Shown here: positions 3,155 to 20,082 of the stretch, piece by piece
Layout: the number at the start of each line of letters is the position of its first letter
How positions within the stretch are numbered: the first letter of the stretch is position 1
Assembly: GCF_014132355.1 (NCBI RefSeq)
Contig: NZ_BLZO01000060.1
Coordinates: forward strand, 1-64,000
Length of the DNA: 64,000 nt
Direction: 5' to 3'
Origin: Okeania sp. KiyG1
GTDB lineage: Bacteria; Cyanobacteriota; Cyanobacteriia; Cyanobacteriales; Microcoleaceae
Translations under genes and position numbers: made by a program
Notes under the pieces: generated by a model
The model's input: the letters and a program-made list of their open reading frames with translations, nothing else
What the model was told of the DNA's origin: nothing
Databases searched by the model: none

Positions 3155-4888
3155 ATGAATTTTCAGAGAATTATCACCATAATTATTATTAGTATTTTAC
3201 CCCTAAAAACTATTAATGTCAGAAACTTAATTATTAGTATCACTGCCCTAATGCCACTAATAGCATCAGAAGTTGCTCTGAGTTTAACAGAATCAGAAAT
3301 CAACAAAATAGCAGGAGAAATTACAGTTAGAATTGATGGACAAAACAGAGGTGGTTCAGGTGTAATTGTCGAAAAACAAGGAGATACATATTATGTACTC
3401 ACTAACTGGCACGTTGTTAATAAAGTAGGAGATTATCAAGTACGCACACCTGATGGAGAAATGCATCCAGTTTACTATAGTCTGATTAAACAAGTACCAA
3501 ATGTAGATTTAGCAGTCGTGCCATTTACCAGTTCTCAAAATTACCCCGTTGCTGAAACAGGCGACCCAACTCAGTTAATTCAAGGAAAACCAGTTTTTGT
3601 CGGGGGATGGCCGCGCTCTGGCAGCAACCTTCAACAACGAATTTTTCTGAGTACACCAGGGGTAGTCAAAGGGCGTCAGCAACCTATCGGTGGTTATAGT
3701 TTACTTTATGATAATTTAGTCAGAGCGGGGATGAGTGGCGGACCAGTACTAGATACAGAAGGTCGTCTAGTTGCTATTAACGGTATTGTCAAGTTACAAG
3801 AAAACTCTGATGCGATCGTTTCTGGAGGAATAGAAATTAATACTTTTTGGCAGTGGCGACAACAGGTTTCGTTGCCGACCATTTCTCAACAACCCGAGAC
3901 TGCTCAAACTACAACTACTCCAACAGCAGCAGCAAACCCTGTTTCTACAACTATCTCTAAACAGGAAAATGGAACAGAAACTGCTGTAAATTTTACTCTG
4001 GCAAAGGCAATTTCCAATGAAGTAGGTGGAATAGTTAATTCTGTAGTTGCTTTAAATTCCCATATCATCAGTGGTAGTAGTAACGGGATGATTTCAGTCA
4101 GGGATATTAAGAATGGCGAAGTCATAGCTATTTGGAAAGCTCACAAAGAATCAATAAATTCAGTTGCAGTATCTCCCGATGAAGAGTTAGTTGTCAGTGG
4201 TAGTGATGACAAAACTATCAAAATTTGGAAACTACCCAAAAATAAAAATGTCACTGATATTACTCTGGTGCAGACTCTCACTGGACATAACGATGTGGTA
4301 GATGCAGTAGCGATCGCTCCTGACGGTGAAATGTTGGTAAGTGGGAGTTGGGATAGAACTATTAAAATTTGGAATTTAAGTACTGGAGAGTTGCTCCGCA
4401 CCTTAGAAGGACATTCTGAGATAATTAATGCGATCGCCATTAGTCCTGACGGTCAATTTCTAGCTAGTGGTAGTAAAGATAATAAGATTAAATTATGGAA
4501 CCTACAAACAGGTCAACTAATTCGTAATATAAATACTAATTCTCTATCAATTTTGTCTGTAGTTTTTAGTCCTGATAGTCAGATATTAGCTAGTAGTAGT
4601 AGTGATGGCACGATTAATATTTGGAACTTGCAGACAGATGAATTAATTCATAGTTTAAAAGAACATATAGATGGAGTATGGTCAATTGTTATTACTCCTA
4701 ATGGTAAAACTTTAATTAGTAGCAGTTGGGATAAAACCATCAAGTTTTGGGAACTGAGTACGGGTAACTTAAAAGGTAGTTTAAACGGACACACAAGTTA
4801 TATTAGTACAGTAGCAATTAGTCCTGATGGTCAAACAATAGTTAGCGGTGGTTGGGACCGGAAAATTAATATTTGGAAAGTTCCTTAG
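3155..4888 (+). CDS. Secreted trypsin-like serine protease with C-terminal WD40 propeller
   Basis: 577 residues. A hydrophobic N-terminus (about 1-42) looks like a signal peptide or anchor, so the protein probably acts in the periplasm or outside. The S1-type protease domain (about 50-250) shows the full triad: His86 in LTNWHVV, Asp118 in NVDLAV and Ser194 in AGMSGGPV. A Thr/Ala-rich linker (about 250-290) leads to seven WD40 repeats (about 290-577, ending in IKIWKL, IKIWNL, IKLWNL, INIWNL, IKFWEL and INIWKV variants), enough for one closed propeller, probably the substrate or partner binding platform. The fusion is known in cyanobacteria, but the target is unknown. The start gives a sensible signal peptide; no Shine-Dalgarno sequence is evident. 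The gene stands alone between repeat-rich spacers. Confidence 0.9.
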   Translation: MNFQRIITIIIISILPLKTINVRNLIISITALMPLIASEVALSLTESEINKIAGEITVRIDGQNRGGSGVIVEKQGDTYYVLTNWHVVNKVGDYQVRTPDGEMHPVYYSLIKQVPNVDLAVVPFTSSQNYPVAETGDPTQLIQGKPVFVGGWPRSGSNLQQRIFLSTPGVVKGRQQPIGGYSLLYDNLVRAGMSGGPVLDTEGRLVAINGIVKLQENSDAIVSGGIEINTFWQWRQQVSLPTISQQPETAQTTTTPTAAANPVSTTISKQENGTETAVNFTLAKAISNEVGGIVNSVVALNSHIISGSSNGMISVRDIKNGEVIAIWKAHKESINSVAVSPDEELVVSGSDDKTIKIWKLPKNKNVTDITLVQTLTGHNDVVDAVAIAPDGEMLVSGSWDRTIKIWNLSTGELLRTLEGHSEIINAIAISPDGQFLASGSKDNKIKLWNLQTGQLIRNINTNSLSILSVVFSPDSQILASSSSDGTINIWNLQTDELIHSLKEHIDGVWSIVITPNGKTLISSSWDKTIKFWELSTGNLKGSLNGHTSYISTVAISPDGQTIVSGGWDRKINIWKVP

Positions 4889-4919
4889 AGGTTGTCTGAG
4901 AAGTCCCATTTGCTACATC

Positions 4920-5012
4920 TAAGCCCCCGCGCATCCCCCAATTTTGGGGGACTAGAGCAAGCAAATTGACTCTTGTTCCCCCCAAAGTTGGGGGGTCAGG
5001 GGGGCAAAATTA
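4920..5012. repeat. Family D-like repeat fragment
   Basis: G- and C-run hairpin blocks ('CCCCCAATTTTGGGGGAC', 'TTCCCCCCAAAGTTGGGGGG') followed by GGGGGGCAAAAT. The same blocks form the core of the complete element at 18365-18615. The terminal GGCGTTGCTGA sequences are missing here, so this is a partial copy. Confidence 0.55.
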
Positions 5013-5332
5013 AGTATCAAAAAAATTTTCAGATATCCTCTTCATTTCAGTCAAAATCTAACAGAGGTATTCAACAATCAATAATTAATAATTAATAATT
5101 AATAATTAGAGTTTGCTGATTAATTATCAAACCATTGAAATGTAGGGACGTTGCATGCAACATCCCTACCAGGTTGGTTCAATAATTTAGAATTTAGAAT
5201 TTAGAATTTAGAATTACCTCTCCTTGAAAAGAAGAGGATTGACGAACAGGAAAATTTTTATTTATTATCCCCTTAAAAGGGGAGGCTTTAAACCACAATA
5301 TTTCGGTAAAGATTGTTTATTACAGTTATTTA

Positions 5333-7580: not shown

Positions 7581-7868
7581 TTTAGAATTTAGAATTTAGA
7601 ATTTAGAATTTAGAATTACTTCTTCTTATAAAGGGGAATAGATAAGGAATCTACTGTATGTTGATAATTCTATAATTACTGCAATCTCCCTACTCCCCAC
7701 TCCCCTACTCCCCCACTCCCCCACTTTCCTTCTTATAAAGGGGAATAGATAAGGAATCTACTGTATGTTGATAATTCTATAATTACTTCAATCTCCCCTA
7801 CTCCCCTACTCCCCCACTCCCAACTAGATAATTAAGTATTCAACCAGATTTAATATTTTGGAGACACT
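7581..7868. repeat. Direct duplication between the DUF1800 and DUF1501 genes
   Basis: After four TTTAGAA units, a segment beginning CTTCTTATAAAGGGGAATAG and running through a 'CTCCCCTACTCCC' tract occurs twice (from about 7619 and about 7730) with few differences, a direct repeat of roughly 110 bp. The right end reaches the DUF1501 start. Confidence 0.7.
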
Positions 7869-9095
7869 ATGAAAAGACGTAATTTTTTACAATTTGCTAG
7901 CTTACTATCAGCTTCAGGAATAATCTCTGTTGGCAGTCATGCTTGGGTAGCAAAAGGATTAGCTCAAACCAACAATCGTAAACGATTAATAGTTATTTTT
8001 CTCCGAGGTGGAGTCGATGGATTAAATGTAGTTATTCCTCATCAGGAATACAATTATTATGATGTACGACCAAAAATAGCAATTCCAGCTCCAGGAGAAG
8101 CAGAAGGAGCGATCGACTTAGACGGTCAATTTGGCTTACATCCTGCTCTAGCAAGTATCATACCCCTCTGGCAAAATCGCAGTTTAGCATTTATTCACGC
8201 CTGCGGTTTAAACAACAACACTCGCTCCCATTTTGATGCTCAATATTATATGGAAACAGGTATTCCAGATAATAAAAAAATACCTGATGGATGGATGAAT
8301 CGTTTGTTAGCAAATCTGCCAAAAGATAAACCTACTCAAGCTGTAAACTTAGGAGATACACCACCTCGCATTCTCATGGGTGCAATGCCAGTTGCTAGTC
8401 TTCCCACCGGAAGAAAATCGACCAGTAGTTTACCCATAGACCGCCCCAAAATTTATGAAGCATTCGATCGCCTTTACAGCAGCAATGACGAACTTAGTAG
8501 AGTTTACCAAGAAGGTCGCCAAGCAAGAGATTTACTACTAGCTGACTTAGAGCAGGAAATGGAAGCTGCTTCAGCAGGAGCGCCACCTCCCGAGGGTTTT
8601 GCTGGTGATGCCAAAAATTTAGCTCAAATTATGGTTGGTGATTCCAAAACACAGTTAGGGTTTCTCGCTCTCGGTAATTGGGATACCCACGTTAACCAAG
8701 GAAGCAGTCAAGGTACTTTAGCAAGACGATTGAAACCTCTTGGGGAAGGTTTAGTTACTCTAGTTCAGGAGTTGGGTCCGCTTTACTCAGATACCGTGAT
8801 TTTAGTAATGTCAGAATTTGGTCGCACGGTGAAAGAAAATGGTAATGGTGGCACCGATCATGGTCATGGTAATGTAATGTGGGTTTTAGGTGGTGGGGTG
8901 CGTGGTGGTCAGGTTTACGGACAATGGCCTGGTTTAGATGAATCAGAATTGTTTCAGCAACGGGATCTAGCGGTGACAACGGACTTCCGGAATGTGATTT
9001 CTAGTGTTTTAGAGCAGCATCTTGAGATTGAGCGATCGCAAATAGCGCGGATTTTTTCTGGTTATTCTTCTGAGCGGCGTTTGGCTTTATTGTGA
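7869..9095 (+). CDS. DUF1501 family protein with Tat-type signal
   Basis: 408 residues. The start MKRRNFLQFASLLSASG carries a twin-arginine motif followed by a hydrophobic segment and a likely cleavage site near residue 33, so the protein is probably exported folded by the Tat system. DUF1501 belongs to the alkaline-phosphatase/sulfatase-like superfamily. Visible family blocks are FLRGGVDGLN (about 46-55), GLNNNTRSHFDAQYYMETG, LALGNWDTHVNQG, VILVMSEFGRTVKENGNGG and GGTDHGHGNVMWVLGGGV. These hold the Asp and His residues that would bind metal. The neighbour DUF1800 gene is the usual partner. Substrate unknown. Confidence 0.9.
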   Translation: MKRRNFLQFASLLSASGIISVGSHAWVAKGLAQTNNRKRLIVIFLRGGVDGLNVVIPHQEYNYYDVRPKIAIPAPGEAEGAIDLDGQFGLHPALASIIPLWQNRSLAFIHACGLNNNTRSHFDAQYYMETGIPDNKKIPDGWMNRLLANLPKDKPTQAVNLGDTPPRILMGAMPVASLPTGRKSTSSLPIDRPKIYEAFDRLYSSNDELSRVYQEGRQARDLLLADLEQEMEAASAGAPPPEGFAGDAKNLAQIMVGDSKTQLGFLALGNWDTHVNQGSSQGTLARRLKPLGEGLVTLVQELGPLYSDTVILVMSEFGRTVKENGNGGTDHGHGNVMWVLGGGVRGGQVYGQWPGLDESELFQQRDLAVTTDFRNVISSVLEQHLEIERSQIARIFSGYSSERRLALL

Positions 9096-9464
9096 AGTAA
9101 GTAATGGTTGATGATTTGGCGGTGAGAGTATTAATTCTTCTTCTGAGGGCGAATGCCATTTGCTAACGCAAAGCTCCGAATGGCGCCCCTACATATGGCA
9201 TTTTTAAGGTAAATTTGCGTCAGTTATGATTATATGGTAGTCCTGCTTGTGTAATGGTTTACAGAAAAAAGGAATATCTGGCACGGGAGCAAGATGCTCC
9301 CACTGCCGTGCTTCATAAAAATCAGTTAATATATTTACAGCGCTTTTCAGATTGATGACCTCACGTCATAACCAAAAACCTGTAGGGGCGAATGCCATTC
9401 GCCCTCTTGATTTAGTGTCCGTGCGTAAGTCATGAGATAGTTACATTCCAGACAACCACCAGGG
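9096..9464. other. Spacer between convergent genes with repeat fragments
   Basis: It holds two incomplete family B copies (about 9148-9222 and 9370-9434) and a hairpin GGGAGCAAGATGCTCCCA (about 9285-9302). That hairpin recurs near 20884 and resembles the 21-bp tandem unit at 23896-24165. The two flanking genes converge here; one of these hairpins could stop transcription, but no clear U-tract is seen. Confidence 0.5.
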
Positions 9465-10379
9465 CTAAAATTTTCTCGCTTGAGCAAAAGTAGCAGCAGC
9501 TTCTGGAGAGCCTATATATCTCCAGTGCCAAGGTTCGTAGCTGACTCCTTGTGAATTGTTTGGAGGAAAAGATAACTCAAAACCAAACTTCTGAGCGTGA
9601 CGGGTTAACCACTGGAAAGCTTTGGTATTTTCAAAATCGATAGTTATATCCTTTTTGGGAAAGTTCCCATCAGTTAAGTCAATGGCAAAACCTGTATGGT
9701 GTTCGCTGTATCCTGGTGGGGCGGAAACTTTTGCAGCGGCCTCAACTGAACCACGACGTTGAATCTGAGCTTTAAATAGTTCTTCCTGGAGCTCAAAAGT
9801 ACGAAATCCTGAAACAGGTACAAGCCAAACACCTTCGTCTCTTGCAGTATAAATCATATTCATTAGTGCTTTTGCTGCTTCTGGGTGCAGATATTCAAAC
9901 CTTTGGTATTGCCTAGCGCCATAACTGCTAATAATCACCATCCTGTTAATGTGACCTGGTGGGTATAGAAAGTGACCATAGGCAGTTTCGCCACCAACAA
10001 GTTTCTGTTCCTCTCTATCCACTTCAGAGTTTTGAGATGTTGGGTTTAGTAGCCCAATTCGTCTCGCAGCTTCAGGGAGTCGCTGAAGCAGAGGAGAGGG
10101 TTCTGCTTGAGTAGACGAATTTGGAGCAGGAGACTCTTGAACCTTTTGAGATGGTTCGGGAGAAGTTTCTGTTACAGGAGTAATAGGTACATCAACTACC
10201 TGAACTTCTGGAGATGAGTTAGGAGAAGGTTCTGTTGCAGTTTGCATATATAGACTTTCAGGTGAAAAATGTAGGATTATTGTTCCAAATAAAACAATTG
10301 TTCCAGCAACAGAAACAGCTATTAGGATAAATTTTAACCAGTTTTTTAAACTAAATTTCTCTATTTTAAACAATTTCAT
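9465..10379 (-). CDS. VanY-type D-alanyl-D-alanine carboxypeptidase, membrane-anchored
   Basis: 304 residues. A basic start and one membrane segment (about 15-38) are followed by a Pro/Ser/Glu-rich linker (about 48-98) and a LAS-type metallopeptidase domain (about 150-300). The zinc signature is complete: SEHHTGFAID gives His227 and Asp234, and EPWHWRY gives His285; SGFRT (190-194) is also typical. The family trims the terminal D-Ala from cell-wall peptides or cuts other short peptides outside the membrane. The gene is last in the eight-ORF operon running from 18286, only 5 nt after the preceding stop. Whether it belongs functionally to the TIR/SPFH-like system or is a passenger is open. Confidence 0.88.
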   Translation of the reverse strand: MKLFKIEKFSLKNWLKFILIAVSVAGTIVLFGTIILHFSPESLYMQTATEPSPNSSPEVQVVDVPITPVTETSPEPSQKVQESPAPNSSTQAEPSPLLQRLPEAARRIGLLNPTSQNSEVDREEQKLVGGETAYGHFLYPPGHINRMVIISSYGARQYQRFEYLHPEAAKALMNMIYTARDEGVWLVPVSGFRTFELQEELFKAQIQRRGSVEAAAKVSAPPGYSEHHTGFAIDLTDGNFPKKDITIDFENTKAFQWLTRHAQKFGFELSFPPNNSQGVSYEPWHWRYIGSPEAAATFAQARKF

Positions 10380-10384
10380 TTTTA

Positions 10385-11287
10385 TTAAATTACTTTAGAG
10401 GCATAAATTTTCAGGTTTCCATTAATCAATCTCATGTTGTAGATCACTGTTAAAGTTTTAAAGTTACTACTACTACGGTCAACTGAACCATCTGAATTAT
10501 AAAGGGTGTAATCTTCTGTGATCCTTACTTTAATTGCTGCTTCGTTACCCTCTGAAACAAACTCCTGAACACTGTCAACCCTTTGTACATTATAACGATA
10601 GTATGCACCATTGCTTTGTAACCAATCTATTGCACCAACTGCCTTTTCATAGAACTCGCTAGTGGCTATTTCAGCAAGAACTTGACGATTATAGGGTGGA
10701 GCAAACATTACTTTTTTTGCTTCTAAGTATTTCTGAATCAAATTAACAGCTTTCTGCCGTGAAATAGATGGCTCTGGTGGTCGCTGAGGTGGTGCAGGTG
10801 ATTTAACAGGACTAGGCTTTGGCGATGCTGGTGGTATAGGAGAAGGTTTAGGTGTCGGTTCTATTACAACAACTCGATTTTGAGACAAAACCAAGCTAAC
10901 TAAGCCAAATACTCCAATTACACCCCCAATGATAACTGCTGTTCGCCAATCTAAAGGAGACGGAGGCGGTGAAGGTGTTGGCGGTGAAGGTGTAGGAGCA
11001 GGAGTAGGAGCAGGAGTAGGAGCAGGAGTAGGTTCTGGTGGTGGTGTTTTTTTATCAGTCGGTGGAGACAATATGAGTTTGTCATTGTCCTGGATACCAG
11101 CTTGTTTAAATGTTAAATTGTCTTTTAATTCTTCTTCTGTTCTTTCTAGAACAAGTTTGTACGGGGGAGTTTCTGGTAAACCCAATAACATTTGCACTGC
11201 TTCGCGAGATTCACCTAACTTTGAATCAGGTGAAACATCTATAATTCTCTCAGCAGTATCATCAGTTCTTGTAAATATTACTTCCAT
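10385..11287 (-). CDS. Ubiquitin-like N-terminus, Pro-rich linker, membrane segment, IMS/ARC6-like C-terminus
   Basis: About 300 residues from ATG at 11287. A longer frame reaches 11419, but this start is chosen because the neighbour paralogue begins with the same MEVIFT. Residues 1-75 (MEVIFTRTDDTAERIIDVSP, then VLERTEEELKDNLTFKQAGI and DNDKLIL) have the strand-helix-strand pattern of a ubiquitin-like beta-grasp domain of EsaB/YukD type. Next comes a linker of repeated PTPAPTPAP, a membrane segment (AVIIGGVIGVFGLVSLVL), a second Pro-rich linker, and a C-terminal domain starting SRQKAVNLIQKYLEAKK that resembles the IMS/DUF4101 domain of ARC6-type and other cyanobacterial membrane proteins. 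The domain names are inferred from pattern only. A role as membrane adaptor in the operon is plausible. Confidence 0.75.
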   Translation of the reverse strand: MEVIFTRTDDTAERIIDVSPDSKLGESREAVQMLLGLPETPPYKLVLERTEEELKDNLTFKQAGIQDNDKLILSPPTDKKTPPPEPTPAPTPAPTPAPTPSPPTPSPPPSPLDWRTAVIIGGVIGVFGLVSLVLSQNRVVVIEPTPKPSPIPPASPKPSPVKSPAPPQRPPEPSISRQKAVNLIQKYLEAKKVMFAPPYNRQVLAEIATSEFYEKAVGAIDWLQSNGAYYRYNVQRVDSVQEFVSEGNEAAIKVRITEDYTLYNSDGSVDRSSSNFKTLTVIYNMRLINGNLKIYASKVI

Positions 11288-11363
11288 TTTTATTATTTGT
11301 TTATATAATATTTTTCTACTCGTATTTAAAAAAACTTGGTCTAAATACCTTAAGTGTTTACAA

Positions 11364-12287
11364 CTACAAGCGTTCAACTTTATTAACCAGCCAACGGTCA
11401 GAATCTGTGTCCCAAACAAAATAAAAGCGAAGAGTTTGATTGATTTCTCTGCCAGATTTCATAAAATACCGCAGTCTACTGTCTACTATAGAATTAAACC
11501 CATCTTCTGATACCAATTTGGTACTTAGTACATCTATCCTTGCAACTTGAGTCCACCAATCTATGTAGGACTTGTATCCTTCTGGATGGGCTTTAGTACT
11601 TCGTTGCGATCTAGAGGATAAAGAATTCCAAGCACTTTGATACTCATAATTGTTTAGAGTTTGGTAGTAATTTCTTAAAGCTTGTTCTGGTAACGCTCGA
11701 AGAAGGTTGGGTTCGGTTCGGGAAATCTGCTTTTGAGTTCTTTCCTGTTCTAACTTTCTCTCGGCTCCTTGTCTTTGACTCCTTTCCTGTTCTAACTTTC
11801 TTTCAGCTTCTTGCCTTTGAATCCTCTCCTGTTCTAACTGCTCGTTAATAATCGCTTGTTGTTGTAGAGTTTGGAGATAAAGCAAGCTTCCAACTACTGC
11901 AATTAATACCATGGTACCAACCATGAATGCTGTTGGAAAAACTTTAAAATTGAAAGACGATGGGGATTCTTTTTCTTCAGTTACGCTAGAAATATCGTTT
12001 GTTTTCTGATTATCTTGGTAGGTATCACTCTCACCCTCTTGGTAGGTCTCAAAAGTATTTAAAGGAAAAAGTATAAGCTTGTCATTGTCCTGAATACCCG
12101 CCTCTTTGAATGTCAAATTATCCCTTAATTTTTTGCTAGTTCTTTCTAGAACAACTTTGTAAGGGGGACTTTCTGGTAAACCCAATAACATTTGCACTAC
12201 TTCGCGAGACTCACCTACCTTTGAATCAGGCGAGACATCTATAATCTTCTCAGCAGTATCATCATTTTTTGTAAATATTACTTCCAT
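11364..12287 (-). CDS. Ubiquitin-like N-terminus, membrane segment, coiled coil, NTF2-like C-terminus
   Basis: 307 residues. Residues 1-75 are closely related to the next gene's N-terminus (MEVIFTKNDDTAEKIIDVSP; about three quarters identical), so the two genes share a duplicated ubiquitin-like module. A membrane segment follows (about 115-140, FPTAFMVGTMVLIAVVGSLLY). Then comes a coiled coil with repeated EQERIQRQEAERKLEQERS (about 145-190). The C-terminal region (about 200-307, ALPEQALRNYYQTLNNYEYQ ... TQVARIDVLS) looks like the NTF2-like modules at the ends of cyanobacterial kinases. The gene is 65 nt after the SPFH-like gene and 76 nt before its paralogue. Function unknown; probably a membrane-bound scaffold. 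Confidence 0.75.
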   Translation of the reverse strand: MEVIFTKNDDTAEKIIDVSPDSKVGESREVVQMLLGLPESPPYKVVLERTSKKLRDNLTFKEAGIQDNDKLILFPLNTFETYQEGESDTYQDNQKTNDISSVTEEKESPSSFNFKVFPTAFMVGTMVLIAVVGSLLYLQTLQQQAIINEQLEQERIQRQEAERKLEQERSQRQGAERKLEQERTQKQISRTEPNLLRALPEQALRNYYQTLNNYEYQSAWNSLSSRSQRSTKAHPEGYKSYIDWWTQVARIDVLSTKLVSEDGFNSIVDSRLRYFMKSGREINQTLRFYFVWDTDSDRWLVNKVERL

Positions 12288-12352
12288 TTTTGTTAGTTCT
12301 TTATGTAGTAATTTTATACTGTACCTAAATAAAAATTGGTCTAATTACTTTT

Positions 12353-14848
12353 TTAAGTCAAGTCTTTCTGATTAGGAACGCTAGTATCACTGCTAGGATC
12401 AGAATCTAAATTGTTTTTGCCTGGTAGTAGACCCATCTGCTCTTCAAATGCGAGGGTGTTCTTACTTCCATCTCTTTTAGGCTCTAATATATCAAGAGCG
12501 CTTCCAGCATCCTCCAACGAAGGAGTAAGAATTTCTTTCTCTAAGCGATCTATTTGTTCATCCAAATACTCCCGTTCATCCGGATCTGCATCGGGATCTG
12601 CAACCAACTTTGCTCTTTGCTCATAAAGTTTATCAAGTTCATTAGATTGTGCTTTATTCTTTCTTGAGGACATCTCCAATTGATTCTGACGCTGTTGAGT
12701 TCTTGCCTCAACTTGAGCTAAAGCTTCATCAACTTTTGATCTCTCTAATTTAGTTCTAGCTGCAGACAAATATTCTTCTCCTTCAGTGCGGATGCGATAC
12801 AGGTTTATAATCTCAATTTCTAGACCATATTGCTTAACAACACTCTCCCTTGCCCATTGATTGACGTAGCGCTCCATAGTAGATAAATGTTTATTATCTG
12901 TGTATCTAAGAAGTTCGCTGTCAATGGTAGTCAACTTAGCATTAACACTCTTTTCTATTGAGTTTTTAATATTATCCATGCCAAAAATCTCCTTTTCTAT
13001 ATCACGAATTCTCTGGCTAATTTCGCCAAGTTCCTCTCTGTTCTCTTCTACATCACCTAAGTTAACAACTTTAGCATATTGCTTTTTGAGGGCTTTGCGT
13101 TCTTTCAACGACTCTTGCTGCAATTCTCGCATAGATTGGAATGCAGACTGGAATACATACCAACTACCCTGCTCAATACCTAAAATTTTGAACTCTCCTT
13201 GAAACTTAACAGCTTGTCCACCAGTCAAAGAAAGCACTTCACAGTTGAAAGAACCCACCATTCCCATTAACCTTTGCAGATAATCAATAATATCTGTTTG
13301 TTCGGGAATAGGAACAACTCTAATTACTATTACCCCAAAACGCTCTTCTAAGGTTGTCGTAATTGCATCTTTCAGTTCTTGTTCAACCGACTTTTCGCCA
13401 GCTATAGGTTCATAAAAACGCATATAAAATCTTTCGGGGTCGATAGTGCGTATATTTTCTCTAGTGGTACTTTTAACTGTATCTTTGATTAAGTCTTTAA
13501 TTTCATCAACTGTTTGATTGAGATAATCTTCAATTTTTTCAAGACTCTTAAACTTGAGATTGACTGCTGTACTTAACTTAACTTTGACGCCAGTAGCACT
13601 GGTTGAAAATTCTTCTGGTTTGTCGTCATTATTTATTTCTAGATTTTCTAGTAGTTCGCTATGCTTTTGTTTTGGGAGAGAAACTATATGCTTCACTAGA
13701 TAACCGATAGATTCGGCTTCAGTTTGCATTGCACGCCGAATTTCATCAGATTCTTTGCTAAAATCGCACAATATACCTGCATAGTTCTTATCAAGCAGCA
13801 AAGGCTTAACAATTTTTTCCAGTTTACTCTGCACCCAAGCTTCTAAGTTAGGAGATTGTGCAGAAATATATCGTCTAACATCTTGAGGAAGCATCTGGAG
13901 AGTATTTTCAACATATACTAAACCCGTATACTTCTGTACCTTGCAATCGACAGTACAACTTATTTCTACAAGCTCCTTGGGAACTGGAGATGAAGAAATT
14001 TTCTTACTATTGAGATATAAGTGTCCAACTCGGCGACCTTGATCGCGTAGAATCCTATCTAAATGCTCAACTAATCCATTCCTAACCGTATCTTTCAATT
14101 CATAGTAGAACTGAGTAATGGAAACTTTTTCAAGTAAGTAGCTTTTAATTTCTTTCTTAGTAACTTTGACTAAGGAGATCAGCCAACCAGACTCCTGGTT
14201 AGACACAGCCTTAACTGGGTCCTCAATAATTAGTTCAGTCTCAAGTTCAAGGTCTAGCTTATCATCAGAATCGGAAACGTATACGGTAATCTCTGTCGGG
14301 CCAATTTTTACTGCTTCGAGCTGTTTTTCATCCCCTAGAGATAGCCGAAAATGAATGTTAAGACCAATCTCATCTTGTGTTTTTTTCTTTAAGGAGGTCT
14401 GTAAACCTTCTACTTGACCGAAAAAATCATCTATATATATAGCCTCCTTTTCATAGGTTAGTTCAGCTATCCATCTCTCAACTCTCTTATCCAATTCATC
14501 ACCAGGAGAATCATCACTACAGAGAGCTAGAGCAACTTGTTGTTCTTTTCCAGGAGGGCAACTAGCACGATAAGCTACAGAAATACGAAGTTTACGATTA
14601 TTCCCAAAATCCGTTACCTCTACAGGTAGATCTGTACGTTCGGCAATATTTGAAGCATCATTGTTGTTAGAAATTAAATAATATACTATATTCTTGCGAT
14701 CGATAAAGGGTATTTTGTCCAAATAGTCCTTTTTTTGTTTGTTAATAACTATGATTTTTTCAGTAGAAGATTTAGTTTTGCTTTTAGCAGATGCTTCAGC
14801 TTTTTCTACTTTACGAATAATTTTATCTAAAGCGTGATGTTTTACCAT
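12353..14848 (-). CDS. Large SPFH/band-7-like scaffold protein (831 residues)
   Basis: The start follows AGAGGTAAAA, a good Shine-Dalgarno sequence. Two regions (about residues 185-290 and 425-545) each have the strand-rich then amphipathic-helix layout of SPFH/band-7 proteins: VYVSDSDDKLDLELETELII followed by DTVRNGLVEHLDRILRDQG, and KVKLSTAVNLKFKSLEKI followed by ELKDAITTTLEERFGV. Residues 590-800 are strongly coiled-coil (KERKALKKQYAKVVNLGDVE ... QRIRDIEKEIFGM). I see no membrane segment, so it would be cytoplasmic or peripheral. SPFH proteins form large membrane-associated rings. It sits in the middle of the TIR operon. The SPFH call is pattern-based and should be tested by structure comparison. 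Confidence 0.6.
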   Translation of the reverse strand: MVKHHALDKIIRKVEKAEASAKSKTKSSTEKIIVINKQKKDYLDKIPFIDRKNIVYYLISNNNDASNIAERTDLPVEVTDFGNNRKLRISVAYRASCPPGKEQQVALALCSDDSPGDELDKRVERWIAELTYEKEAIYIDDFFGQVEGLQTSLKKKTQDEIGLNIHFRLSLGDEKQLEAVKIGPTEITVYVSDSDDKLDLELETELIIEDPVKAVSNQESGWLISLVKVTKKEIKSYLLEKVSITQFYYELKDTVRNGLVEHLDRILRDQGRRVGHLYLNSKKISSSPVPKELVEISCTVDCKVQKYTGLVYVENTLQMLPQDVRRYISAQSPNLEAWVQSKLEKIVKPLLLDKNYAGILCDFSKESDEIRRAMQTEAESIGYLVKHIVSLPKQKHSELLENLEINNDDKPEEFSTSATGVKVKLSTAVNLKFKSLEKIEDYLNQTVDEIKDLIKDTVKSTTRENIRTIDPERFYMRFYEPIAGEKSVEQELKDAITTTLEERFGVIVIRVVPIPEQTDIIDYLQRLMGMVGSFNCEVLSLTGGQAVKFQGEFKILGIEQGSWYVFQSAFQSMRELQQESLKERKALKKQYAKVVNLGDVEENREELGEISQRIRDIEKEIFGMDNIKNSIEKSVNAKLTTIDSELLRYTDNKHLSTMERYVNQWARESVVKQYGLEIEIINLYRIRTEGEEYLSAARTKLERSKVDEALAQVEARTQQRQNQLEMSSRKNKAQSNELDKLYEQRAKLVADPDADPDEREYLDEQIDRLEKEILTPSLEDAGSALDILEPKRDGSKNTLAFEEQMGLLPGKNNLDSDPSSDTSVPNQKDLT

Positions 14849-14866
14849 TTTTACCTCTAATTTAAG

Positions 14867-15151
14867 TTACTTTGTTACTTTGATTTCTTTTTGTAAAGCC
14901 CTAAATTTCTTCTTGAAATCTCTTAAAATTTTTCTTCTGGTAGTGAACTGCTTCTGTAGTTTTCTATCTCCTAATTGATTTGACTTTGTACCTTGTTCTA
15001 GATATTTTTCTGTAAGAGATGTCCAAAAATTACTCAGCTCACTTTTTAGAGAACGAGGAGTATTTGAAATAATGCTGCGAGCCATATCTTCGATTAAATT
15101 TTCAACTTCTTGCTCCAGCTCTACATGATCAAAACCACGCAAAATTACCAA
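14867..15151 (-). CDS. Displaced C-terminus of the large helical protein
   Basis: As it stands this is a 94-codon frame starting MVILRGFDHVELEQEVENLI, rich in Lys/Glu and helical. Reading upstream in the same frame gives a natural protein sequence (KCLRILFKDFTPDSF, then NPLENISYLIAEW) that overlaps the end of the preceding frame, whose own tail (FFLKILLQIVLILLKTLAI) looks like out-of-frame AT-rich translation. One missing A in the AAA run at about 15231-15233 (minus strand GGTAAATG) accounts for it. This is therefore almost certainly the last about 100 residues of the gene starting at 17031, not a gene of its own. Confidence 0.6.
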   Translation of the reverse strand: MVILRGFDHVELEQEVENLIEDMARSIISNTPRSLKSELSNFWTSLTEKYLEQGTKSNQLGDRKLQKQFTTRRKILRDFKKKFRALQKEIKVTK

Positions 15152-15162
15152 CCATTCTGCAA

Positions 15163-17031
15163 TTAAATAGCTAATGTTTTCAAGAGGATTAAAACTATCT
15201 GGAGTAAAATCTTTAAAAAGAATTCTAAGACATTTACCAGAGCAAGTTCTCCATTAGCAGTACAATAAAATAGCCAACTAAATAAAGTATTTAACTCACT
15301 ACCAAATTTACTATCATCTTGGCTTTTCAATGGTGCAAACAAAGGATACGCAGAAGGCCACTCTCCATACCACTTTAAGTTATTCGTCCAGATGTATGTT
15401 GTTTGATTGCAGTAAACAAATAACAAAAGAAAAGCGACTCGATTTGACAGAGAGTATTTTTCTGAAGGAACATCTGGTGAAGGCAACCATTCCTTTAAAA
15501 TCTCTAGAAAATCATAGATGTAGGAATATAAACCACTTTGCCACAATAGTTTGTCTAATAAGCTGTAAACATCAGCCTGGAGGTTTTCATCCTTATTTTC
15601 TAAACTCTCTCGATCTAGCAACTTTTTCAGCCAAATTAGGAGTTGTTTTGCAGCTTGAATACCTAATGCTCCTGAACGTAAGTGCTTGTCCATTAAATCT
15701 CGAACAATTTCAAAGGCAAGGGTTCGATGTTCTGGAGACATTAAACTTTCAAGAAAGCTTTGAGCGATATCCTCAGCTCTAGAATAATCTGATTCAATTT
15801 GTAATCTATAAATTAAGTACGACAAACGCAGAAGTAAAGGGTTAATTCTCCGCTTGTCTTCCTGAGCAATTTTTACTAGAAGTTCTATCAGCCAACCCTC
15901 CCCATAGGAACTTGGATAGTCAACGCTAGCCCTTAAAGCGACATCTATTGCCTTTCTCGCAAGATCATCAGAAGTGTCAAGTAATAAGTCTAGCTTTTGG
16001 GTTTTTTGGAGTTGCTCCTCTAAATATAAAGGTTGCTGTTCTTCAAAATAAGTCAAAAAATCCCTTCTTAAGCTAGGAAAAGTAAAGTCAATACCCTGCA
16101 TTTTATTCTGACGACTGACTCTTAAATAAGAATTCTCTAAATATCCATCCGACTGTTCAAAGCTCTCTTGCCAAATTTCAGTTAATAACTTTTCCTTTTG
16201 AGTTTCTTTTACCTGTGTTTTTCCTTCTTCTGTGGTTATTGACTCTTTAACAGGTATAATTTTTGTTTGGCCTTCTAGTAAGAGTGAAACGACCCACTTA
16301 AAGTCTTGGGGGTTTAATTCTGGAAAGAAAGTTGCCACATACAAAACAGTTTTCTGGATAGTGTCACTGTTTGAAAATAGCGAGTGAGCTGTAACGCTTT
16401 CGGACTCTTCTGAGGCATAACCCTGACCTGTTCCTCTTGTGTTTTTATTCCCTCTTCTGTTCTGCTCTCTTTCTTCTAGCTCTTTATTAAGGTCGCTTAA
16501 ATCTTTCTCAAGTTGTTCAAGTTTCAGCCGTTTTTCTTCACGTTCTCCCCTAATTCTATCTAGCTTTCTTTGAGTTTTGCGTTCCTCAATAGGAGAATAA
16601 GCTTCTCTCTTGTCCTCAGATAAATCTTCTATCTCTTCAGTTAATTCATCATATTGATCTTTTAAACTAGCAATTTCCGTTTTATATCTTTCCTTCCAGG
16701 TTTGTAATAGTTGTGTTGGTAAGTCAGAGTATTTGGTCTTTTCCTTTGTAGAAGAATCACTAGAATATTTACTATCATCATCTTTACTTTTTCCCTGACC
16801 TCTAAGTGGATTGAAAAAATTTCCTTCAATTGAATATCTGCTAAGAGGTGTTGGTATCTTGTCACCTTCCTTTAGTTCCGGAGGTGTTGGTATCTTGTCA
16901 CCTTCCTTTAGTTCCGGAGGTGTTGGTATCTTGTCACCTTCCTTTAGTTCCGGAGGTGTTGGTATCTTGTCACCTTCCTTTAGTTCCGGAGGTGTTGGTA
17001 TCTTCTCACCTTGGATATCTTCTTCCGTCAT
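15163..17031 (-). CDS. Large coiled-coil/helical protein of the TIR operon, frameshifted near its end
   Basis: 622 codons as read, about 720 if joined to 14867-15151. Residues 5-62 are four to five copies of a 12-residue unit (ELKEGDKIPTPP). Residues 63-105 are Ser/Asp/Lys-rich and probably disordered. Residues 108-200 form a long coiled coil (RYKTEIASLKDQYDELTEEI, KLKLEQLEKDL type). From about 215 on the protein is mostly helical, perhaps a helical-repeat array (YVATFFPELNPQDFKWVVSL, ... ARKAIDVALRASVDY, ... HRTLAFEIVRDLMDKHL). No enzyme motif is recognised. It lies 38 nt after the TIR gene and 18 nt before the SPFH-like gene, so an adaptor or sensor role is possible. The last about 25 residues of this frame are probably artefactual. 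Confidence 0.65.
   Translation of the reverse strand: MTEEDIQGEKIPTPPELKEGDKIPTPPELKEGDKIPTPPELKEGDKIPTPPELKEGDKIPTPLSRYSIEGNFFNPLRGQGKSKDDDSKYSSDSSTKEKTKYSDLPTQLLQTWKERYKTEIASLKDQYDELTEEIEDLSEDKREAYSPIEERKTQRKLDRIRGEREEKRLKLEQLEKDLSDLNKELEEREQNRRGNKNTRGTGQGYASEESESVTAHSLFSNSDTIQKTVLYVATFFPELNPQDFKWVVSLLLEGQTKIIPVKESITTEEGKTQVKETQKEKLLTEIWQESFEQSDGYLENSYLRVSRQNKMQGIDFTFPSLRRDFLTYFEEQQPLYLEEQLQKTQKLDLLLDTSDDLARKAIDVALRASVDYPSSYGEGWLIELLVKIAQEDKRRINPLLLRLSYLIYRLQIESDYSRAEDIAQSFLESLMSPEHRTLAFEIVRDLMDKHLRSGALGIQAAKQLLIWLKKLLDRESLENKDENLQADVYSLLDKLLWQSGLYSYIYDFLEILKEWLPSPDVPSEKYSLSNRVAFLLLFVYCNQTTYIWTNNLKWYGEWPSAYPLFAPLKSQDDSKFGSELNTLFSWLFYCTANGELALVNVLEFFLKILLQIVLILLKTLAI
16847..17010 (-). repeat. 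36-bp in-frame tandem repeat, four and a half copies
   Basis: Copies start at 16847, 16883, 16919 and 16955 with a partial copy from 16991, virtually identical. On the minus strand each encodes ELKEGDKIPTPP. Near-identity points to recent slippage or recombination, so copy number may vary between strains. Confidence 0.9.
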
Positions 17032-17069
17032 ATCTTAAATTAATCTCTCTAGTTTGTATGTTTACGATT

Positions 17070-17774
17070 CTACCCATGAGCAAGTCGGCTAATCTCTGCT
17101 TGAAGCCTTTCAACTTCTTGGTCGTGTTGGTTTCGCTTTTCTTCAAACTTTTTTTTATTCTTGTCCAGGTTGTGCTGTCGTATTGCATCACCTATATTCG
17201 CATTCATCTCATCTACTATGTCATTTATCACTTTTGTTAATTCGTTAGATTGTTTTTGAGCCAAAGACAAATCCCTTTGCAAACGCCCTATTTTTTCCTG
17301 AGTGAAGTCTAGAGTGTTAACATAATAAGAAGTTTGTTTTTGTGAGTTATTTGTAAATACTTGTAATAATTTGCTAATGTCATCATAGCTATCCAAATTG
17401 TCAAGAGTCACAAACTGAATCTCTTTTAAGTAATTAAGTTTACTAGGAAGATTATCAATACTAGCTCCAGGTAAAAGTATCGGAACAATTCTAGGACTTT
17501 GCCTTCTACTACTTATATAACGGTTATGTAAATAGTCTATTTCCGCATCTTGCCAAGGCCCTACACCATTTATTCCCAGAAAGAAGAAAACCGTATCAGT
17601 GTTATCAAGAATTTCGTAGAGTTTGCCTGGCCAATGGTCTCCACCTTTAAACTGCCGTTCATCTAGCCAAGTTCTAATACCTGCTTTTTCAAGCTTTTCC
17701 CCTATAATTCTCACACTATCTTTATCAAGACTATTATGAGAAAGAAAAACATCAAATTCTTTTTGTTCAGTCAT
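17070..17774 (-). CDS. TIR-domain protein with C-terminal coiled coil
   Basis: 234 residues. Residues 1-150 are a TIR domain: box 1 is FDVFLSHNSLDKDSVR (7-22), then IRTWLDERQFKGGDHWP, a TDTVFFFLG strand, and WQDAEIDYL (74-82). Glu78 matches the catalytic glutamate of NAD-hydrolysing TIR domains. Residues 155-234 form a coiled coil (QEKIGRLQRDLSLAQKQSNE ... HDQEVERLQAEISRL), probably for oligomerisation or binding to the coiled coils of the next two proteins. Bacterial TIR proteins commonly act as effectors in anti-phage or stress systems by depleting NAD or making cyclic ADP-ribose signals. It is second in the operon, 17 nt after the first gene. Enzymatic activity is inferred, not shown. Confidence 0.88.
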   Translation of the reverse strand: MTEQKEFDVFLSHNSLDKDSVRIIGEKLEKAGIRTWLDERQFKGGDHWPGKLYEILDNTDTVFFFLGINGVGPWQDAEIDYLHNRYISSRRQSPRIVPILLPGASIDNLPSKLNYLKEIQFVTLDNLDSYDDISKLLQVFTNNSQKQTSYYVNTLDFTQEKIGRLQRDLSLAQKQSNELTKVINDIVDEMNANIGDAIRQHNLDKNKKKFEEKRNQHDQEVERLQAEISRLAHG

Positions 17775-17791
17775 TTATAAACTCCTTTTTT

Positions 17792-18286
17792 TCAATTTTC
17801 TACACCAGCAACTTGAGCCAGAGCTTGAGCATACTTATTTAGCTCCTTTCCCAAAACCTCTAGTTCCTTTCGCAGTTCAGGCTCTTCTGACCACTGCTTT
17901 TCATGTTCTTTAGAACTAACGCCATCGGGTCTCTGAGTTTCCCACACCTCCAAACTAGGATGCCACTTAGTTACAAAAGGCCGTAGTCCTTGGTTAAGAA
18001 CAGCGATCGCGATACCACCAACTGAGTTATGTGAAGCACCCACACCAGGACCTGCTTCTTTCAAAATTTCACGAGTGGTTTCAAATAAACTATAGAGAGA
18101 GTCTAAAGCTTCTCTAAAAATGCCCTCCTCTTGGCCTAATGGTTGTATCGAAATGCGTGTCACCAGTTCAACATAGAGCGACCAAGCCGCATGACGTTCT
18201 GTTTGGTCTGCCTCCCACTCAGCAGACCCCAGGCCAAAAGGAAGGCTAACTGAAACTTTTTTTAAAACCGCCGGGTCTCGTTCCAT
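17792..18286 (-). CDS. Unrecognised 164-residue protein heading the TIR operon
   Basis: I cannot assign a family. The sequence starts MERDPAVLKKVSVSLPFGLG and is followed by SAEWEADQTERHAAWSLYVE, LVTRISIQPLG, a LYSLFETTREILKEAGPGVG helix, a Gly/Ser-rich NSVGGIAIAVLNQGLRPF segment and WHPSLEVWE. It ends in a Glu/Lys-rich helix and KYAQALAQVAG. There is no membrane segment, signal or Cys-rich site. Higher GC and balanced codon use suggest a well-conserved globular helical protein. Because it is the first gene and 17 nt from the TIR gene it could be a sensor, inhibitor or adaptor for the TIR protein. The operon promoter should lie just above 18286, next to the family D element. Confidence 0.75.
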   Translation of the reverse strand: MERDPAVLKKVSVSLPFGLGSAEWEADQTERHAAWSLYVELVTRISIQPLGQEEGIFREALDSLYSLFETTREILKEAGPGVGASHNSVGGIAIAVLNQGLRPFVTKWHPSLEVWETQRPDGVSSKEHEKQWSEEPELRKELEVLGKELNKYAQALAQVAGVEN

Positions 18287-18364
18287 TGAATTTTCTCCAT
18301 TACCATATCTACTAAGCCTTGGTTAGCCATCCTGCAATAAGTAAGCCTAGTTAGTCGAAATTTT

Positions 18365-18615
18365 GGCGTTGCTGAATTGAAGTATGAATGTGCGATTGTT
18401 TGGTTCTCGCCTTCGCCCCCGCTGGTCCCCCGCGCATTGGGGGACTTTTAGAGTTTTATTCCCCCCAAAATTGGGGGGCTAGGGGGGCAAAATCATATGT
18501 TTGGTTCTCGCCTTCGCCCCGCGCATCCCCCGCGCATTGGGGGACTTTTAGAGTTTTATTCCCCCCAAAATTGGGGGGCTAGGGGGGCAAAATCATACCC
18601 ATAATCAGCAACGCC
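18365..18615. repeat. Inverted-repeat element family D, with doubled core
   Basis: Termini GGCGTTGCTGA (18365) and TCAGCAACGCC (ending 18615) are inverted repeats. The core (TTTGGTTCTCGCCTTCGCCC, then CCCCCGCGCATTGGGGGAC, TTCCCCCCAAAATTGGGGGG and GGGGGGCAAAATCATA) is present twice in tandem. A second complete element is at 41111-41310, a fragment at 4920-5012, and a related piece lies inside the secretion-domain gene at 22340-22536. The rest of the interval 18287-18735 shows nothing else clear. Confidence 0.7.
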
Positions 18616-18735
18616 AACATTTTTAATACTATTGTAGTACCCTAATAATACGACTGTCAAGATGAAAGCCATAAACATCCATAATATTTAGAGGAGAATA
18701 TTTTTATTATACTAATCAACCGGATTTGATATAAT

Positions 18736-20082
18736 TCATCTATCAGGTTGGCGAGGTTTACGGGCAAAAAAGGTGAGAATTAAAATCAAAATTACCAATA
18801 TCAAACAACTATAAAGACCAGGTTTATAAGAACCCAATTTATCTTTAAATATAGCTAAAAAAGAAGGTCCTATGGCACTAGCTATGACCAGAATCATCAT
18901 CTGAAAACCAGAAATAGCACCCAAATAAGCTCTACCAAAAAAACGCGGTAAAGCCACTGCTGATAAAGTACCAAAAGATCCCATACTAATACCAAATCCA
19001 ACAATAGTTAATACCCGAAATAAAGGCACGCCAAAATTAGCAATAGCAGCCACACCTATTGCTTCACCAACCATCATAACCATGAATAAATATTTGATAT
19101 TAACTCTGTCTGCAGCTACCCCCATCAAATAACCAACAATTGTAGATACAACCGCCTGGGGTAAAAATATACTCACTGTCTGCACTTGGGATAATCCAAA
19201 TTCTGCACCAATATCAACGATATGAAAAGTGATACCTGTAAATATCAAAGACTGGGATGATAATACTAATGTCACCACCCAAAACATAATTGTGGCGATC
19301 GCTTCAGCGCGGGTAAAATCTTGTAAGTTGTTTTCAGATGAGTTTTCTACTTCAACCGTAGGTGTTTGTAACTCTCCATCCATTAATAAACCGCATTCTT
19401 CAGGAAGATCGCGATAAAATACCCACCCTATTAAACCCATACCAATACCAACAACTGCTGCCATAGTTAGCCAAGCATTTCGCCAACCTAAAATATTAAT
19501 CAATGAACTTGAAACTATGGGTGCAATAGAGAACCCAAAAACCATGAATAAACCATTAAGACCAGAAACAAAACCCCGACGACGGTTAAACCATTTACCG
19601 AGAGTGGTACGACTGGTCATGGTTAACATACCTTGGCCGGAAAAACGCAGGCAGACAAAACCTAATATCAGCATTAATAGCGCTATAGTTAAATCGGGAA
19701 TTCTAGGAAATGCGTTACTGATGAGAGTAGTTAGGCGATCGCTAAAACTGAGATAACACAAAGTTAAAGCTAAACCTACTGATGCACAAACAACAGTGAC
19801 TCGCGCCCCAAAACGGTCTAGCAATACTCCGCCATAAGGCAATAGTAAACCACTGGTCAAAGTACCAAAAAAATAAGCATTACTCAGTTGTAACCGTGAC
19901 AGACCAGTAGCAGCTAGTAAATAGTCAGTGAAAGCACTCATCCCAATAGTTTGAGCGGGTATACTCATTATTACCCCAATGGTGCAAACAATTAAAATTA
20001 TCCAGCCATAAAAAAACGGGAAATTTTTAGGAGCGAAAGGATAGTCGGGATGTAACAGATTTTTGGGAGTAATTTTCAACAT
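18736..20082 (-). CDS. Major facilitator superfamily transporter (monocarboxylate/oxalate-formate antiporter type)
   Basis: About 448 residues from ATG at 20082 (MLKITPKNLLHPDYPF); a longer frame to 20142 adds a poor leader, so I prefer the internal start. There are about twelve hydrophobic segments. A LLDRFGARVTVV loop after the second segment fits the MFS loop signature, followed by GKWFNRRRGFVSGLNG, typical of the MCT/OFA branch with its Arg-rich loop before transmembrane segment 5. A hydrophilic central loop (DLPEECGLLMDGELQTPTVE) separates the two halves. It would import or export a small organic anion; the substrate cannot be told from sequence. It is a single gene with repeat-filled flanks. 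Confidence 0.85.
   Translation of the reverse strand: MLKITPKNLLHPDYPFAPKNFPFFYGWIILIVCTIGVIMSIPAQTIGMSAFTDYLLAATGLSRLQLSNAYFFGTLTSGLLLPYGGVLLDRFGARVTVVCASVGLALTLCYLSFSDRLTTLISNAFPRIPDLTIALLMLILGFVCLRFSGQGMLTMTSRTTLGKWFNRRRGFVSGLNGLFMVFGFSIAPIVSSSLINILGWRNAWLTMAAVVGIGMGLIGWVFYRDLPEECGLLMDGELQTPTVEVENSSENNLQDFTRAEAIATIMFWVVTLVLSSQSLIFTGITFHIVDIGAEFGLSQVQTVSIFLPQAVVSTIVGYLMGVAADRVNIKYLFMVMMVGEAIGVAAIANFGVPLFRVLTIVGFGISMGSFGTLSAVALPRFFGRAYLGAISGFQMMILVIASAIGPSFLAIFKDKLGSYKPGLYSCLILVILILILTFFARKPRQPDR

Follow-up and report, generated by a model that had tools for sequence, protein, structure and literature searches.

A minus-strand operon at positions 9465–18286 of contig NZ_BLZO01000060.1 from Okeania sp. 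KiyG1, within an analysed stretch of 64,000 nucleotides (nt; the window), combines a TIR protein with a set of core genes that recurs in other genera behind different effector enzymes. It consists of seven genes, one of them split by a frameshift and thus seen as two of eight open reading frames (ORFs), and encodes a protein of no known family (orf1), the TIR protein with its coiled-coil tail, a large helical protein, an SPFH-like protein, two membrane proteins starting with a ubiquitin-like (Ubl) domain and a VanY-type peptidase (Table 1). The best reading of these sequences is an envelope-anchored system of the effector-associated-domain (EAD) kind, in whose core no NTPase was found. Whether it is an effector-exchanging conflict system, probably one of regulated cell death or defence, we judge from the sequences to be an evenly balanced question.

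The core was traced in genome searches that scored at most two candidates per genome, which makes misses likely; because of this limit and because the genome draws overlap, all counts are lower bounds. A single SPFH-like query found relatives in at least 2 of 386 phylum genomes, a three-row profile in at least 10 of 389 genomes of the Cyanobacteriales, and a seven-row profile in at least 1 of 339 phylum genomes, namely that of KiyG1 alone. Plasmids and phages yielded nothing with the SPFH-like protein or profile, and the 30 pattern matches in viral contigs included no relative. Seven of the ten genomes carry a separate full-length SPFH-like gene, which in all seven loci is immediately preceded by a helical gene and immediately followed by a Ubl gene. 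These loci are KiyG1 (G000), L002 (G644, a Trichodesmium metagenome-assembled genome, MAG), L003 (G357, a Microcystis MAG), L021 (G569), L022 (G425), L023 (G436) and L024 (G610). The sequence-only reading had made its proposal depend on conservation of the gene set, and other genera do carry the core with its gene order kept. In two further genomes the helical and SPFH-like parts are found in one protein (1264 aa in G614, L026; 1256 aa in G590, L027), and because of this fusion the sequences suggest that the two proteins are physical partners; G631 (L025) has a divergent form of 952 aa. The core count excludes L028 and L030 (contigs of L002 and L003), a copy with stops (L029) and a remnant in G320 (L068). 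The helical profile listed at least 41 of 389 genomes, 30 of which matched model positions 95–218 of the coiled coil only; these 30 (27 in open frames of 619–828 aa) were treated as coiled-coil matches and excluded from the count.

The enzyme gene ahead of the helical gene varies across the seven loci. A TIR gene takes this place in four (KiyG1, L002, L003, L024), the L002 protein being assigned by its 73% identity to the KiyG1 TIR, with no Pfam scan, and the Microcystis protein being distant from it (20–26% identity) with a tail of the same kind. Caspases (PF00656) are encoded in L022 and L023 (1.3e-18 and 4.4e-19), and L021 has a trypsin (PF13365, 1.9e-15) preceded by a Trypco1 gene (2.9e-19). 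The expected active-site motifs are complete in the two caspases, in the trypsin and in four VanY proteins. Among the scanned operon proteins no NTPase or GTPase family scored above its cut-off, apart from two AAA_35 genes after the L021 core. EAD systems are recognised by effector exchange on a constant core, as seen here, and by an adaptor shared between the effector and the adjacent core protein. Such sharing is also found: the effector tail resembles the start of the adjoining core protein, strongly in three of the seven loci and weakly in KiyG1. The KiyG1 locus has no EAD family match at E ≤ 1, and EAD9 stays below its cut-off in L003 (0.0094) and L023 (0.016).

Comparison within the genus covered four of its six genomes (G555 and G590 were left out) and places the operon in a slot flanked by an MFS-like gene (95% identical in three comparisons) and a DUF1501-like gene (94–96%). 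Between KiyG1 and L024, DNA identity is 91.4% over 17355–18364, the part with orf1 and the catalytic domain of TIR, and again 91.4% over 7868–11240, which holds the second Ubl gene, VanY and the DUF1501-like gene. The block in between has no collinear blastn match of at least 100 bases at E ≤ 1e-10, except for 70% between the first Ubl gene and the single L024 Ubl gene. Protein identities follow the same division, with 96% for orf1, 81% for the TIR domain and 90% for VanY, as opposed to 31% for the TIR tail, 35% for the first helical piece and 38% for the SPFH-like protein. The DNA match ends at 17355, the border between TIR domain and tail, in both congeners that keep orf1 and TIR (L024 and L147). 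L147 matches KiyG1 at 85% over 17355–18364 and at 91.4% over 7833–9910; its TIR tail consists of EAD10 (30.7 bits, cut-off 24.1) and a terminal motif, and its core differs from the KiyG1 type. The next protein, which is a different one of 872 aa, repeats this terminal motif at its start (0 of 2000 shuffles) and is followed by a TM-Big_9-IMS protein (TM, transmembrane) and VanY. With L149, KiyG1 has no more in common than the flanks and a stretch of VanY (73%); the L149 slot contains VanY, a protein resembling a kinase and two proteins that carry a matched motif. From these slot comparisons it follows that orf1 and the enzyme domain stay, while tail and core are swapped jointly.

Four congeners thus present four versions between conserved flanks, with the ends kept and the centre replaced, a pattern that recalls the fungal het loci and would suit a polymorphic slot for allorecognition or kin discrimination, in which mismatched adaptor-core versions kill. 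We nevertheless regard self/non-self recognition as decidedly unlikely, given that the data comprise one genome per species, that defence systems vary likewise and that the slot was seen in four of the six genomes of the genus.

Other features of the slot and of related loci were recorded in passing. Two near-identical G/C-rich palindromic repeat units lie at 18400–18600 of the window, between the MFS-like gene and orf1, and similar sequence sits on the opposite side of the slot in L024. L024 also has two small genes between the MFS-like gene and orf1 (4311–5071), which by eye we take to be AbrB- and PIN-like. Neighbouring proteins have short Gly/Asn-rich motifs in common in L026 (6408–10807), L067 (5935–7958) and L149 (5097–7475), with 0 of 2000 shuffles each for L026 and L149; possibly these are amyloid-like signalling motifs. 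Elsewhere in the KiyG1 genome (C86; L165, 8292–12624), an SNF2-like protein bears the adaptor coiled coil, and an apparently broken caspase-like gene nearby has a matching tail. The labels DUF1501, DUF1800, MFS, SNF2 and SPOR-like, as well as that of the kinase of L159, were assigned by inspection, outside the family scans, and are presumptive.

Beyond gene content, gene order, exchange and tail similarity, everything said about function is inference. In the proposed mechanism, the SPFH-like and helical proteins would form a scaffold beneath the membrane, and the Ubl domain would dock this scaffold to a TM arm, with the outer part (IMS, SH3b, VanY) extending towards the wall. The adaptor tails would be clustered by a signal related to the envelope or to phage, and clustering would activate the TIR domain, leading to destruction of NAD and to growth stop or cell death. 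The sequence-only reading had proposed an undescribed conflict or stress system; effector exchange, the similarity of tail and core and the replacement of the central genes fit its first half, a conflict or cell-death system. A more specific version, in which an NTPase-free, inflammasome-like platform, with an SPFH-like scaffold that lies beneath the membrane and that a Ubl docking domain tethers to an arm directed at the wall, licenses interchangeable death enzymes (TIR, caspase, trypsin) and the adaptor-core cassette, which sets specificity, is exchanged as one unit at a polymorphic locus, is put forward tentatively, as one possibility among several. If the conflict-system reading is right, it would provide a conflict-system core without a recognised NTPase and couple death enzymes to the cell envelope. 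It would also mean that one genus holds natural alleles in which adaptor tail and core have been replaced jointly and the enzyme domain kept; such alleles would make the coupling of effectors to cores by a shared adaptor directly testable.

The envelope components could instead point to maintenance or stress signalling without death, with TIR acting as a scaffold or signal enzyme and VanY remodelling the wall. VanY and IMS do occur beside Ser/Thr kinases apart from the core: in the congeneric loci L153 (4618–9314) and L154 (9204–13746), two genes of the kinase-TM-IMS type, with outer parts like those of the operon and kinases inside, adjoin a VanY gene. A maintenance role is however unlikely, as the enzyme is exchanged for caspase or trypsin, tail and core are replaced jointly, and the core is rare in the order (at least 10 of 389 genomes).

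The operon itself is confirmed. All eight minus-strand ORFs called in the sequence-only reading were recovered at the same coordinates, and the intergenic gaps across the series (17, 38, 11, 18, 65, 76 and 5 nt) agree with the spacing of 5–76 nt that it had given. Seven ORFs (164–831 aa) exceed the longest ORF found in 20 mononucleotide shuffles of 9465–18286 (136 aa), and the 94-aa piece does not. This piece belongs to the helical gene: as had been proposed from a frameshift near 15231, a single helical profile covers both parts, matching the first ORF over model positions 1–611 (1.6e-230) and the second piece over 595–706 (4.5e-33, at 14873–15214). Unbroken helical genes encode 739 aa in Trichodesmium and 753 aa in Microcystis, compared to 622 + 94 aa in KiyG1. 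The frameshift may be a natural mutation or an assembly error; programmed frameshifting was considered as a further possibility. The promoter-like site upstream of orf1 is only suggestive, because shuffles yield 22.7 such sites on average.

Table 1. Features of the KiyG1 locus and its upstream region, in window coordinates.
Feature	Positions	Strand	Details
Promoter-like site upstream of orf1	18631..18660	-	11/12 consensus bases; best of 18 sites in 9000-18900
orf1	17792..18286	-	164 aa; no family; TIR-gene partner
TIR catalytic domain	17355..17774	-	~residues 1-140; candidate catalytic Glu78
TIR tail	17070..17354	-	coiled-coil adaptor; adaptor core 17082-17297
Helical core protein, first ORF	15163..17031	-	622 aa; adaptor-like coiled coil 16492-16707
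Helical core protein, post-frameshift piece	14867..15154	-	94 aa
SPFH-like core protein	12353..14848	-	831 aa
First Ubl protein	11364..12287	-	Ubl, TM (120-138), coiled coil, C-terminal domain without known family
Second Ubl protein	10385..11287	-	Ubl, Pro-rich, TM (115-133), ARC6-like IMS
VanY-type peptidase	9465..10379	-	N-terminal TM helix 18-36
Block replaced in congener L024	11241..17354		TIR tail, helical, SPFH-like, first Ubl, second Ubl start

The frameshift, together with a second orf1 copy of the genome that is also broken, raises the question of whether the KiyG1 version is a decayed copy that no longer functions. This we hold to be quite unlikely: the remaining genes are open and similar in length to their relatives, the helical gene is unbroken in other genomes, and an assembly error is possible because the genome is a draft of 198 contigs.

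orf1 has no Pfam match over cut-off and no NCBIfam or PADLOC match at E ≤ 1. Among 60 genomes searched within the family, six hold it, at eight loci, each time adjoined by a TIR gene; orf1 is part of the TIR module and not of the core. It also stands next to TIR-GUN4 proteins in L148 (8691–10829), L150 (7812–9753), L151 (7087–9094) and L152 (6500–8621). In L148, GUN4 is present on orf1 and on its TIR neighbour, and the two copies resemble each other (0 of 500 shuffles), as expected for homologous domains; because orf1 itself is fused to GUN4 there, GUN4 may be a shared adaptor.

The TIR assignment of the sequence-only reading agrees with Pfam (TIR_2, 1.2e-18, residues 9–136). Its candidate Glu78 aligns with a Glu of AbTIR, which we take to be the catalytic residue, and is kept in five of six aligned TIR proteins. 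The KiyG1 protein thus resembles bacterial TIR NADases such as AbTIR in its TIR_2 domain and the aligned Glu, and differs from AbTIR in its coiled-coil adaptor tail and operon context; NADase activity is putative here. Thoeris, defined by a ThsA partner beside ThsB, was considered and rejected: in PADLOC the TIR protein matched ThsB only weakly and in part (best 1.1e-4), and the nine proteins scanned included no ThsA.

The 831-aa core protein is 79%, 58%, 42%, 40%, 37% and 36% identical to six homologues, and is likely to be SPFH-like, an identity that rests on a single homologue barely above the Pfam cut-off. The SPFH-like label given earlier draws on the L024 homologue (Band_7, PF01145; 24.9 versus 23.6 bits, residues 394–494) and not on the KiyG1 protein, which has no Band_7 match at E ≤ 1; the homologues of L021, L022 and L023 are not over the cut-off either. 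Alignment by hhalign to five Band_7 domains of the same genome was not significant (best P 0.0084, one segment), the best alignment covering the same region as the L024 match. An internal repeat was indicated with hhalign (residues 333–620 versus 482–771, probability 76%), and PDB sequence searches gave no match. The L024 homologue resembles SPFH/Band_7 proteins in its PF01145 match; the KiyG1 protein differs from them in its length of 831 aa, has no Band_7 match of its own and, judged by hydropathy, lacks a TM helix. A plain flotillin-type operon was considered as well, and effector exchange argues against it. The KiyG1 genome also encodes a caspase-TM-IMS protein with a segment like the SPFH-like core (C72; L158, 8988–10517; 2.3e-22 to the L024 protein) and a 1077-aa protein with a Band_7 match of 1.7e-8 (C187; L069, 5616–8849), in which we take a further domain, by eye, to be vWA.

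The two Ubl N-termini, likewise called in the sequence-only reading, share 77% identity. Their Pfam ubiquitin matches (0.0017 and 0.037) both lie under the curated cut-off. A profile built from eight Ubl domains of the operons finds ubiquitin chains in the PDB, the best being a polyubiquitin summed over weak repeats; against single-domain Ubl proteins in the PDB the value is ~6e-5. For the second Ubl gene, the earlier description stood as regards the Ubl N-terminus and membrane anchor, and was amended at both ends: the gene more plausibly starts at ATG 11287 than at TTG 11419, which would overlap the preceding gene, and an ARC6-like IMS domain (Pfam 8.7e-22) makes up the C-terminal part. The anticipated VanY peptidase is clear (Pfam 1.7e-44), its nearest solved relatives being D-Ala-D-Ala and LD-carboxypeptidases. 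Both Ubl proteins and VanY have a single predicted TM helix each, in keeping with the membrane anchoring that had been proposed.

Across the operons, a single TM helix follows the Ubl domain, except in L021. Beyond it lies IMS in KiyG1, L022, L023 and L024 and an SH3_3 pair in L003; no domain was recognised beyond Ubl in L002, L021 and the first Ubl protein of KiyG1. VanY comes next in four of the seven loci (KiyG1, L003, L022, L024); L023 has a beta-lactamase-fold protein in this place, and the L002 locus runs to the contig end. The wall-facing orientation of the outer part is inferred from domain knowledge.

In the order, the Ubl profile has matches in 29 of 389 genomes, and outside the system 28 of 32 matches lie in open frames of 82–134 aa. 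Among the small Ubl proteins in the matches listed (n = 18), two end in -GG and six in -AG. The free small Ubl proteins of cyanobacteria are matched by the operon profile, while the KiyG1 Ubl domains differ from them in being joined to a TM arm, without an end of the -GG or -AG type. Ubl conjugation systems are defined by E1, E2 and JAB genes and a free Ubl end. Such a system was rejected for the KiyG1 operon, where no E1, E2 or JAB Pfam match was found and Ubl continues into a TM helix.

Kaur et al. (2020; PMC7159879) describe, in their main text, conflict systems coupled by EADs, including VMAP, iSTAND, FtsH and GAP1; both this paper and a 2021 paper (PMC8195603) report effectors of the TIR, caspase and trypsin kinds in such systems and list Band7-like domains among scaffold parts. 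The framework of effector, shared adaptor and core is therefore already described. VanY, carboxypeptidase and ARC6 are absent from the main text of PMC7159879, as are VanY and prohibitin from that of PMC8195603, and no account of the helical/SPFH-like/Ubl core was found in the open-licence papers searched. As in the EAD systems of PMC7159879, in so far as its main text describes them, one adaptor is present on the effector and the neighbouring core protein, and TIR, caspase and trypsin are swapped; some of those systems also have membrane and peptidoglycan-type domains. Compared with the same descriptions, the operon core differs in that no MoxR, vWA, STAND or GTPase was found in it, in its SPFH-like and helical pair, Ubl-TM arm and VanY, and in an adaptor that in KiyG1 reaches no EAD family cut-off. 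The lack of a recognised NTPase or GTPase likewise sets the core apart from NTP-dependent ternary systems (MoxR-vWA, GTPase). The two-gene membrane system EACC1 (Kaur et al., 2020) is similar in that a membrane component is tied to a caspase effector and domains are exchanged; its constant component is another one, and its main-text description includes no SPFH-like, helical or Ubl gene. With its core conserved and its effectors exchanged, the KiyG1 operon is best read as an EAD-kind system with an undescribed core.

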